18,295 bases of DNA from Chloroflexota bacterium. GTDB lineage: Bacteria > Chloroflexota > Dormibacteria > Dormibacterales > Dormibacteraceae. The position numbers and the translations under genes were made by a program. The stretch spans positions 4,911-23,205 of the forward strand of contig VBJR01000158.1 in NCBI GenBank assembly GCA_005880175.1. Reading direction: 5' to 3'. The notes under the pieces were generated by a model, which saw only the letters and a program-made list of their open reading frames with translations, was not told the origin of the DNA and made no database searches. Shown piece by piece: positions 8,195-10,423 of this stretch (its first letter is position 1; each line of letters opens with the position of its first letter).

Positions 8195-9022
8195 TCACGA
8201 GCGCGCGAAGTCTTTGGCCTTGATCTTGGCCCGGCGGCCGTCCGGGTGGTGGAACACGATCCCCTCCGCGTGGTGGCCGGGCGAGTACAGGCTGTCGGCC
8301 CCGAGCAGGAAGTCGCGCAGGCCCTCGTACGTGCGGGGGACGGTCGTCAGGACGGGGGCGCTCATGTCGAACGGCACGCACACGTTCGCCGTCAGGCCCA
8401 GCGGGTTGCCCTGGATGCTCGGGCCCAGCGCCTCGCACGGGTGCTCGCCGTCCGGCCAGCCGGCCACGTCCGTGCCGCGCACCGCCTCGTAGATCCAGCG
8501 GTCCTCGCGGCCGTACTCGTCCGCGTCCACGTACCAGCCGTCCACGATCCCCTGCTGCTTCTGGACCTTGCTCGGGTTGCGCCGCTTCTCGACGCGCACG
8601 ACCTGGCCCTGCCGGACCGTCAGCCGGACGTTCATGCCGTCCAGCTTTTCGGTCGGCGTGCCCTCGCCCTCCAGCACCCACAGGCACTCGGCCCGGGGCC
8701 GGTCCAGGACGCGGAAGTCGGGGCCACGCTCGAACAGCGTCGGGATCTTCTCCATGGCGCTCGCTCCTCTCTTCACCTGCTGCAGCAGCTCCTCGCGGGT
8801 GATGACACCCGACGCGAGCCCGCTGGCCAGGGCGCGGATCAGGTCGGCCACCGAGGTGTCCGCCTCGACCGCGAACCGCTTGAGCGCCAGCCGTTCCTCC
8901 GGCGAGAGCCAGGCGACGACGCGCTTCCACCCCGGCGGTGGCACCCACGTCGCGAGCGCCTCCGGGTCCTTGCGAGGCCTTCCCCTCTGTGGACTCAATC
9001 CGAGGGCAGAGTGTGGCAGCAA
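8195..9022 (-). CDS. Fusion of a ribbon-helix-helix-like segment to a small RNA-ligase-like nucleotidyltransferase
   Basis: One uninterrupted 275-codon frame from a TTG at 9022. Residues 13-20 (RGRPRKDP) resemble an AT-hook; residues 33-70 (KRVVAWLS, then PEERLALKRFAVEADTS and VADLIRALAS) have the strand-helix-helix pattern of ribbon-helix-helix DNA-binding proteins. From Met90 the product resembles small RNA ligases: motif I K126-L-D-G129 with Lys126 as the likely AMP-accepting residue, EALGPSIQGNP (197-207), motif IV EGIVF (253-257) and motif V KIKAKDF (266-272). RNA ligases of this superfamily seal RNA ends using ATP. Met90 (ATG at 8755) is preceded by AGAGGAG at good spacing, so a 186-residue ligase alone may also be made. 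The upstream start is uncertain; other TTG codons exist nearby. It could instead be two functional units that became joined by loss of a stop. Exact ligase family not established (DUF5565-like is possible). Confidence 0.75.
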   Translation of the reverse strand: MLPHSALGLSPQRGRPRKDPEALATWVPPPGWKRVVAWLSPEERLALKRFAVEADTSVADLIRALASGLASGVITREELLQQVKRGASAMEKIPTLFERGPDFRVLDRPRAECLWVLEGEGTPTEKLDGMNVRLTVRQGQVVRVEKRRNPSKVQKQQGIVDGWYVDADEYGREDRWIYEAVRGTDVAGWPDGEHPCEALGPSIQGNPLGLTANVCVPFDMSAPVLTTVPRTYEGLRDFLLGADSLYSPGHHAEGIVFHHPDGRRAKIKAKDFARS

Positions 9023-9071
9023 TTTTCTGTTATGTCAACAGATACAACAGAAAAGTTTCAGGGTCTGCCCT
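9003..9071. promoter_or_regulatory. AT-rich divergent control region with nested inverted repeats
   Basis: Outer arms AGGGCAGA (9003-9010) and TCTGCCCT (9064-9071) and inner arms TTTTCTGTT (9023-9031) and AACAGAAAA (9046-9054) share almost the same centre near 9038. Inside, CTGTTA (9027), CAACAG (9036) and CAACAG (9045) recur exactly every 9 bases, the first in opposite orientation. The block is an AT-rich island in very GC-rich DNA, sits immediately upstream of the leftward gene start and about 80-130 bases before the rightward gene at 9151. Such spaced short repeats suit ribbon-helix-helix operators, and the leftward product has such a segment; autoregulation is inference. Promoter hexamers could not be fixed. 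Confidence 0.55.
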
Positions 9072-9150
9072 GATGTGCCGCCCCGCCGCCCGGGGCTAGC
9101 TTCGAGCGGACCTTACGGAGGGCGTTCACCGCAGGAACGGAGGTACTCGC

Positions 9151-10116
9151 ATGACGCACGTGCTCGTGTTCGACAGCAGCTGCGCGGCCTGCTCCCGGGC
9201 GGCCCGCGCGGTCGCCGAGATGGGCATCGCCGGCCTCGAGGTCCGGGGCCTGTCCGATCCCGACGTCCTGGGCCGGCTGCGCGAGGCCGGGCTCGAGCCG
9301 CCCGACCGTCCGGCGCTGCTGTCCGGCGACGGGACCGAGGCCCGGCTGGCGACCGGGTGGACCATGCGCCGGCGCCTGGCCGGGCTGGTCGGCTGGCGGC
9401 GGGCCCGGCTCATCGTGCGCCTGGTCTCGATCGAGACCAGGGCGCGCACGGAGCGGTCGGGCTCCGTCTCCCGGCGGCGAGTCATCGGCGCCGGTGTCGC
9501 GATGGCGGCGGGAGCCGTCGCGTCGGGCCTGCTGCCCGAGGCCGCGGCGGCGGCCGCGTCCCCGGCCACCGGCCGGCTGGTGCCCGCGAGCAACGCCGAG
9601 GCGAGCCGGGCGCTCGGCAGCACCGCCGTCCAGGCCGCCGTCCGCACGTGGGGCGCCGCCCAGCCGGTCGGCGTGACCAGCGACGGCACCACCAGCGTCC
9701 TCGTGCTCGGCTTCGCGAACGCGCCCGACGTGGCGCTGCTGGTGGACAACGCGGACGGCAAGACGGCGCTGGCCGTCCGCAAGGACCCGAGGGGCGGAGC
9801 GCTCCAGTTCTTCGGCGTGGACGGCACCGCGTTCGGGACCGTGAGCGTCAAGGGCGGCAAGGTGGTCGCGACGCAGGCGTCCGGCGCGTCAGCCGCCGCG
9901 TCGTCGGCCGGCGCCGCCGTCCCCGCCGTCCACATCCCCACGGCGAAGATCCGCTGCTTCATCCACTGCCTCGGGGCGCACCTGCAGGCGTCCTGCATCC
10001 TGACCTGTCACACCTGCGTGACCACCCCGAACCCGTTCAGCCGGGTCGTCGCCTGCGCGCACTGCCTCGTCTGCGCCGGGCCCGAAGCGATCCGCTGCGC
10101 CAGGCACTGCTTCTGA
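9151..10116 (+). CDS. Composite protein: CxxC thioredoxin-like N terminus, internal twin-arginine-like segment, ten-cysteine C-terminal tail
   Basis: ATG at 9151 follows CGGAGGT. The 321-residue product opens like a DCC/thioredoxin-type thiol protein: VLVFDSSCAACSRA with Cys11 and Cys14. Residues 107-113 (SRRRVIG) and the following hydrophobic, alanine-rich stretch to about 137 look like a twin-arginine export signal, oddly placed after a 100-residue N-terminal domain. A middle domain (about 141-240, including VLVLGFANAPDVALLVDN) is unrecognised. The tail from 266 holds ten cysteines in 52 residues (269, 273, 282, 286, 289, 302, 305, 308, 316, 320) mixed with hydrophobic residues. The layout recalls precursors of Cys-rich secreted peptides such as the archaeal bacteriocin halocin C8, whose TAT-exported precursor also carries its immunity domain; no direct sequence match is claimed. 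A metal- or cluster-binding tail is the alternative. Confidence 0.75.
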   Translation: MTHVLVFDSSCAACSRAARAVAEMGIAGLEVRGLSDPDVLGRLREAGLEPPDRPALLSGDGTEARLATGWTMRRRLAGLVGWRRARLIVRLVSIETRARTERSGSVSRRRVIGAGVAMAAGAVASGLLPEAAAAAASPATGRLVPASNAEASRALGSTAVQAAVRTWGAAQPVGVTSDGTTSVLVLGFANAPDVALLVDNADGKTALAVRKDPRGGALQFFGVDGTAFGTVSVKGGKVVATQASGASAAASSAGAAVPAVHIPTAKIRCFIHCLGAHLQASCILTCHTCVTTPNPFSRVVACAHCLVCAGPEAIRCARHCF

Positions 10117-10139: not shown

Positions 10140-10173
10140 GGCGACCCCCCCTCCTCCTCGAGGGGGAGTCGCC
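10140..10173. terminator. Bidirectional hairpin terminator
   Basis: A 14-position stem with one C-A mismatch: GGCGAC then a C-run on the left (10140-10153) pairs with GAGGGGGA and GTCGCC on the right (10160-10173), with a six-base loop. It begins 24 bases after the Cys-rich gene stop and ends just before the stop of the convergent small membrane protein gene, so it probably serves both. Confidence 0.75.
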
Positions 10174-10174
10174 C

Positions 10175-10423
10175 TTAGGAGTCGCGGCGGGCGGTCCGGC
10201 CCCCCAGCCGGCCGCCCACCCGGCTGACCAGCCACACGGCGACCGTGAGCACCGCGACCACGTTGCCGACGTTGTTCACCCACTGCCAGAGCAGCGAGCG
10301 CCCGTCCACCGTCTGGAGGAGCACCGCCACCACCGCGGAGGGCCGAGCCACCCCGGTGACCAGCAGCCCCGCCGACGCGCTCACCACGACCGTTGCGCCG
10401 GCAAGCGTCGCGGCGAGCGGCAT
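10175..10423 (-). CDS. Small two-helix membrane protein
   Basis: ATG at 10423 with AGGCGGG upstream, 82 residues, TAA stop. Two hydrophobic segments are clear: about residues 3-36 (LAATLAGATVVVSASAGLL and the following VARPSAVVAVLL, together one long or two short helices) and about 50-66 (NNVGNVVAVLTVAVWLVSRV), followed by a basic tail RVGGRLGGRTARRDS that should face the cytoplasm. I do not recognise the family. It is convergent with the Cys-rich protein gene and shares its terminator; small basic-tailed membrane proteins often serve as immunity proteins beside bacteriocin genes, which is a guess here. It is divergent from the sugar importer operon. Confidence 0.65.
   Translation of the reverse strand: MPLAATLAGATVVVSASAGLLVTGVARPSAVVAVLLQTVDGRSLLWQWVNNVGNVVAVLTVAVWLVSRVGGRLGGRTARRDS

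Follow-up and report, generated by a model that had tools for sequence, protein, structure and literature searches.

A candidate twin-arginine export precursor that joins a thioredoxin-like domain to a ten-cysteine helical tail

The candidate precursor gene and its predicted architecture

The subject of this analysis is an open reading frame (ORF) within an 18,295-nucleotide stretch of DNA from a Chloroflexota bacterium (contig VBJR01000158.1; the whole stretch is referred to hereafter as the window, and all coordinates are given within it). The ORF occupies 9151..10116 on the plus strand, with an ATG start at 9151 and a stop codon at 10114-10116, and encodes a protein of 321 residues; the reading frame and at least 51 relatives support its annotation as a whole precursor gene. 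With somewhat less than even confidence, the product is read here as a one-gene precursor, exported by the twin-arginine translocation (Tat) system, of a helical peptide with five disulfides that would be supplied in cis with its own cytoplasmic thiol-disulfide oxidoreductase, weakly DCC1-like. A composite precursor had been proposed in a preliminary description made from the sequence alone, and that layout is borne out by 52 family rows (relatives plus the query) that follow one plan.

A Shine-Dalgarno-like GGAGGT, read from the sequence, lies on the plus strand at 9139..9144, 6 nucleotides before the ATG. The G+C content at third codon positions is 0.969, like that of the neighbouring ORFs; the values, 0.93 to 0.98, would by themselves suggest a high-GC bacterium, perhaps one of the Actinomycetota. 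The preceding ORF (8195-9022) and the next one (10175-10423) are both on the opposite strand, and an inverted-repeat scan returned a 14 bp repeat 3' of the stop codon (10140..10173, assigned to neither strand), so the precursor gene seems to form its own transcription unit. The repeat would fold into a hairpin that lacks a T run and was not called terminator-like by a simple consensus scan; it is possibly the end of the transcription unit. The same kind of scan returned neither a sigma-70-type promoter nor a T-run terminator for the gene.

The AlphaFold model of the full chain (mean predicted local distance difference test score, pLDDT, 83.3; predicted template modelling score, pTM, 0.57) comprises a thioredoxin-like N-terminus, a low-confidence signal, an alpha/beta middle domain and a three-helix tail. 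When the middle domain and tail were modelled alone, the mean pLDDT rose to 89.7 and the pTM to 0.84. The middle domain (residues 143-243; 9577..9879, plus strand) is free of cysteine and is built in the model from two helices and seven strands; it has no confident match among solved structures. The region lacks cysteine in 36 of 37 rows and in all 15 rows added later. At a guess it is probably a pro-domain, acting either as a folding aid or as a neutraliser, and an immunity role would be speculation.

Conservation across the family

The relatives were collected by a whole-protein search (16), a profile of the middle domain and tail (20) and a wider profile of the same region (15). These protein searches scored about 8000 candidates that shared most words within a limited length range, so that 52 is a lower bound and carriers of the tail in much longer or shorter proteins could escape. 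The relatives bear the source labels jgi, lgn and ena, with ncbi for P0041. Even the searches made with middle and tail only still gave proteins of 302-333 residues, bar four short ones (140-186 residues); among the matches listed there was no protein with signal, middle domain and tail but lacking the N-domain, a form that at about 200-230 residues falls inside the allowed length. The preliminary description had named homologues without the cysteine tail or the SRRR segment as the case that would speak against it; none of the 52 rows lacks the tail and none of the 48 that reach the signal lacks the arginine pair, though all 52 were found through similarity to the whole protein or to middle plus tail. 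Since the CxxC, the twin arginine and eight tail cysteines are kept across the family rows, the alignment identifies the four-part chain as an inherited unit rather than a chance fusion or a frameshift product.

Identity and tree counts were taken over 45 rows, leaving out the seven without the N-terminal segment (an earlier comparison used 33 of 37 rows). Mean pairwise identity is 0.57 for residues 1-82, 0.62 for residues 83-104, 0.46 for the middle domain and 0.40 for the tail, the last falling to 0.28 when the cysteine columns are excluded. The N-terminal part is thus the best conserved and the tail positions other than cysteine the least, a pattern that reads as a fixed cysteine scaffold with a variable surface, joined to a strongly kept N-domain. 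Two of the alignments are made of fragments: A2 holds those of 8 of 17 first-search proteins, and A5 consists of 25 of 31 fragments.

The NCBIfam models were run on 37 of the 52 members, and the Pfam models on the same 37 plus three later members (P0047, P0052 and P0055), which gave no match. The whole 321-residue protein has no Pfam match at E ≤ 10, the middle part included, in agreement with the earlier view of this domain as unrecognised. Its sole NCBIfam match is at chance level (MetQ/NlpA, E 0.1, 12.2 bits against a cut-off of 228.85). The family is apparently undescribed, as judged from literature listings: among the matches listed for halocin C8, copper storage proteins, DCC/YuxK/DUF393 and thioredoxin-bacteriocin, such a fusion is absent. 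In genome contigs, two short-peptide-pattern scans that were not exhaustive returned 172 and 130 stretches with no confirmed relative; one likewise non-exhaustive pattern scan of viral contigs returned 4 stretches and no relative, and a tblastn search of plasmids had no match at E ≤ 1.

The ten-cysteine tail

The tail (residues 263-321; 9937..10113, plus strand), delimited by the AlphaFold model and the alignment, carries cysteines at positions 269, 273, 282, 286, 289, 302, 305, 308, 316 and 320. Ten cysteines had been counted in the last 52 residues; the number stands, and the stretch is indeed 52 residues long, but it runs from 269 to 320, residues 270-321 holding nine. The binomial probability of at least ten cysteines in 52 residues is 4.6e-12, against a background of 0.72% cysteine over 2634 residues in eight further ORF stretches on the plus strand of the window. 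As sequence evidence goes, conservation is the stronger argument. Cysteines 273, 282, 286, 289, 302, 305, 308 and 316 are found in 52 of 52 rows; of the ten, C269 and C320 fall short of invariance, each being present in 50.

The two rows that lack C269 are also those that lack C320: P0013 (with Arg and Tyr instead) and P0052 (with Ile and Ala). Midpoint rooting of the tree puts these rows in separate halves, and both cysteines are retained by the closest relatives of each (P0012 and P0014 for P0013, P0055 for P0052). By our own arithmetic, given two independent sites with two losses each, the probability that both sites are lost from one and the same pair of rows is 1 in 1326. Because the two residues were lost together in rows of different clades, the alignment points to a C269-C320 disulfide. 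The tail holds ten cysteines in 48 rows, eight in two, 11 in one and 12 in one, the count being even in 51 of 52.

The tail pattern is CxxxC-x8..10-CxxxCxxC-x7..13-CxxCxxC-x7-CxxxC, and the AlphaFold model places helices at residues 264-277, 280-291 and 295-320. Once the 269-320 pair is fixed, the cysteine spacings are nearly mirrored, 4 against 4 and then 3 and 4 against 3 and 3. The paired loss and this near mirror image together suggest, as the simplest pairing, a predicted nested ladder of 269-320, 273-316, 282-308, 286-305 and 289-302.

Cysteines in CxxxC and CxxC spacing on predicted helices would also suit a Tat-exported metal-binding helical protein, for example for Cu(I), in which they line the helix core and which works like the copper storage proteins; metalloproteins loaded before export usually take the Tat route, and the tail bears what we take to be a likeness to Tat-exported copper storage proteins. 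We consider this distinctly unlikely. The paired loss of C269 and C320 in two clades and the even cysteine counts in 51 of 52 rows speak against it, no Cys-rich metal-binding Pfam model was matched at E ≤ 10 by the 37 members (copper storage protein sequences were not directly compared), and a thiol oxidoreductase fused in cis would have no obvious use in such a protein.

The putative internal Tat-type signal

Between the N-domain and the middle domain lies a putative Tat-type signal (residues 105-139; 9463..9567, plus strand), composed of SRRRVIG at residues 107-113, a hydrophobic stretch to about residue 128 and an Ala-rich region with an A-x-A motif and a run of alanines at 131-136. The first two elements had been noted in the preliminary description, and both recur in the family: the two arginines are present in 48 rows, the other four having a gap there, and Ser or Thr stands ahead of the pair in 47 of the 48. 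An A-x-A motif is likewise present in all 48 rows reaching the segment. The hydrophobic region is mildly so, with a best 15-residue mean of 1.5-2.3 on the Kyte-Doolittle scale. The combination looked for in a Tat substrate, twin arginine, hydrophobic stretch and A-x-A, is thus found in 48 of 48 rows, and we infer use of the Tat pathway followed by cleavage.

The same segment could conceivably act as a membrane anchor. The product would then be an envelope redox protein whose N-domain is cytoplasmic and whose middle domain and tail stay attached outside, where they would relay thiol exchange or sense the redox state. The A-x-A in every row suggests cleavage instead, though this motif is common in Ala-rich stretches; the signal segment of the window protein has no cysteine, which leaves no direct relay, and loss of C269 and C320 only as a pair, with even counts in 51 of 52 rows, suits structural disulfides. 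An anchored redox protein is on balance unlikely.

A second alternative concerns the start of translation. Met72 (window position 9364) is present in 48 of the 49 rows that reach it, and initiation there would put the twin arginine 36 residues from the N-terminus, closer to an ordinary Tat leader. Two products would result, one of full length and the other a shortened Tat precursor, with the N-domain mostly a separate cytoplasmic partner. However, Met72 falls inside the conserved GWxMR stretch of the N-domain itself, the GGAGGT precedes the upstream ATG, and the fusion is kept in 45 of 52 rows, the other seven being short, beginning at an internal Met or having a different N-terminus. A two-product arrangement is therefore regarded as very improbable.

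The N-terminal thioredoxin-like domain

Residues 1-100 (9151..9450, plus strand) are tentatively assigned to a thioredoxin-like, DCC1-like domain with a C-terminal helix, on the basis of the AlphaFold model, weak fold matches and sub-cut-off hits to PF04134. The CxxC formed by Cys11 and Cys14 (9181..9192, plus strand) is present in all 45 rows that carry the segment; in these two columns the remaining seven rows have a gap, and no other residue occurs. In the model the two cysteines sit between a strand (residues 3-7) and the first turn of a helix (12-23), as in the DCC1-like CxxC. The thiol-handling N-domain suggested earlier is in keeping with these results. Three members (P0010, P0020 and P0029) are labelled DCC family YuxK by a source.

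Neighbouring features

The minus-strand ORF at 8195-9022 has weak, sub-cut-off matches to an antitoxin-like ribbon-helix-helix domain followed by an RNA ligase domain, an unusual pairing. In the divergent intergenic region, adjoining its TTG start, is an inverted repeat (9023-9054; TTTTCTGTTATGTC / GATACAACAGAAAA, 86% complementary) that looks like an operator, perhaps for the ribbon-helix-helix part of that same ORF. A terminator-like stem lies beside the repeat on the minus strand (9073-9058), where 0.3 would be expected by chance. On the other side, the minus-strand ORF at 10175-10423 is convergent with the precursor gene and encodes 82 residues with two hydrophobic segments and no Pfam match; an immunity role for it would be pure guesswork. 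Further away, a gene for an SBP_bac_5 peptide-binding protein (1087-2675) appears to be divided between two reading frames towards its 3' end (ORFs 1087-2562 and 2031-2675), through a frameshift or a sequencing error.

Proposed mechanism

The Tat system exports folded proteins, and the cytoplasm is reducing. A CxxC domain ahead of the protein's own Tat signal, with a ten-cysteine tail behind it, suggests a natural cis catalyst. In the proposed mechanism the thioredoxin-like domain would stay in the cytoplasm, where its CxxC would act in cis as a catalyst on the ten cysteines of the tail, oxidising or isomerising them. By the time the internal twin-arginine signal directs them through the Tat translocase, the middle domain and the tail would already have folded. 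Signal peptidase would then cut at the A-x-A motif, freeing middle domain and tail, while the N-domain and signal would remain inside. The tail would form a three-helix unit with five disulfides and might later be cut off from the middle domain.

The secreted product, the tail or middle plus tail, would most likely, at a guess, be a short-range antagonistic peptide. This is favoured by the single-gene layout, the variable non-cysteine surface on a fixed cysteine frame and the analogy to halocin C8, which make an antimicrobial role plausible for the released peptide. A stronger version of the proposal, that the precursor is self-oxidising, with five nested disulfides closed before export, and that the peptide represents a new antagonistic class unrelated to halocin C8, is doubtful at present. 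Consistent with oxidation before export, the available excerpt of PMC6708511 has a single-chain antibody fragment (scFv) that is not exported by Tat when disulfides are not formed in the cytoplasm.

Several observations weigh against the cis-catalysed Tat precursor. Some Tat cargo is exported reduced, for example human growth hormone (excerpt of PMC9995818), which means that an oxidase in cis need not be required, and the CxxC domain could reduce instead of oxidising. The N-domain has weak Foldseek/VIA matches to thioredoxin, glutaredoxin and glutathione S-transferase-like structures, and its PF04134 matches, found in 12 of 37 members, are weak and all below cut-off, with P0010, the member of lowest E-value among the 37, reaching 23.8 bits against a gathering threshold of 27.8; the window protein itself has none. 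Seven of the 52 rows lack the N-terminal CxxC segment and could be genuine forms without the N-domain: four are short (P0025, P0031, P0053 and P0054), two begin at an internal Met (P0034 and P0041), and P0021 has an N-terminus unrelated to the family, whose residues 1-28 resemble what is presumably a piece of a transposase. Twin-arginine signals are normally N-terminal, and here the median position of the arginine pair is 111, behind a folded domain. The fit to Tat signal models is poor, Pfam TAT_signal matching two of 37 members (best E 0.022) and NCBIfam TAT_signal_seq one (E 0.18). An A-x-A motif arises easily in Ala-rich stretches and is weak support for cleavage. One member has the odd count of 11 tail cysteines, and no bacteriocin-partner-like ORF was found among the 10 neighbouring window ORFs scanned.

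Timely oxidation of multi-disulfide Tat cargo is a question that biotechnology meets with added enzymes. If the proposed mechanism is true, a natural thiol catalyst placed ahead of its own Tat signal makes the question of oxidation directly testable; the gene would offer, all by itself, a module for exporting peptides rich in disulfides, and the tail would be a new cysteine scaffold.

Comparison with known systems

The preliminary description had compared the protein with halocin C8. The layout supports that comparison: halocin C8 precursors also combine, in one gene, a twin-arginine-type leader, a cysteine-poor middle and a C-terminal part of about 60-75 residues with ten cysteines (compare P0038), a likeness that we treat as analogy. 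The cysteine spacing differs, and the extra N-terminal thioredoxin-like domain and the internal position of the leader are found only here. Kinship was not upheld. The halocin_C8_dom model (TIGR04449, cut-off 24 bits) matched none of the 37 scanned members at E ≤ 10, with filters that drop most matches above about 0.1, and NF040679 ('halocin C8 precursor-like protein') had no match among the same members. As a control, the mature halocin C8 peptide sequence scored 61.5 bits to TIGR04449, which confirms its identity, and led to three haloarchaeal precursors (L003-L005). Comparison of the whole protein, the middle domain, the tail, and middle plus tail with these by hhalign gave at most 0.3 on a 0-100 scale, three references making this a weak test. 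By analogy, the peptide may work like halocin C8 while standing outside its family. The excerpt of PMC12893001 has a secreted precursor cut by a serine protease, and the word cysteine does not occur in that excerpt.

The N-domain resembles the DCC1-like oxidoreductases (PF04134, YuxK) in that a CxxC starts a thioredoxin-like domain, but, unlike them, is fused to further parts, namely an internal signal for export, the middle domain and the cysteine tail. For the internal signal there is a parallel in the actinobacterial Rieske protein, in which, according to the excerpt of PMC5449189, a twin-arginine motif within the chain steers insertion by the Tat pathway. In both cases the arginine pair would drive export of the C-terminal part from inside the chain; the Sco2149-type Rieske protein, however, carries two transmembrane segments ahead of the motif and remains membrane-anchored, whereas the present protein has a soluble domain ahead of its motif and an A-x-A behind it. 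A functional parallel to the proposed catalysis is CyDisCo, in which, as given in the excerpt of PMC9995818, a cytoplasmic thiol catalyst enables Tat export of a disulfide protein. CyDisCo is engineered and acts in trans, with a yeast oxidase and human protein disulfide isomerase, whereas the catalyst proposed here would be natural and would act in cis.
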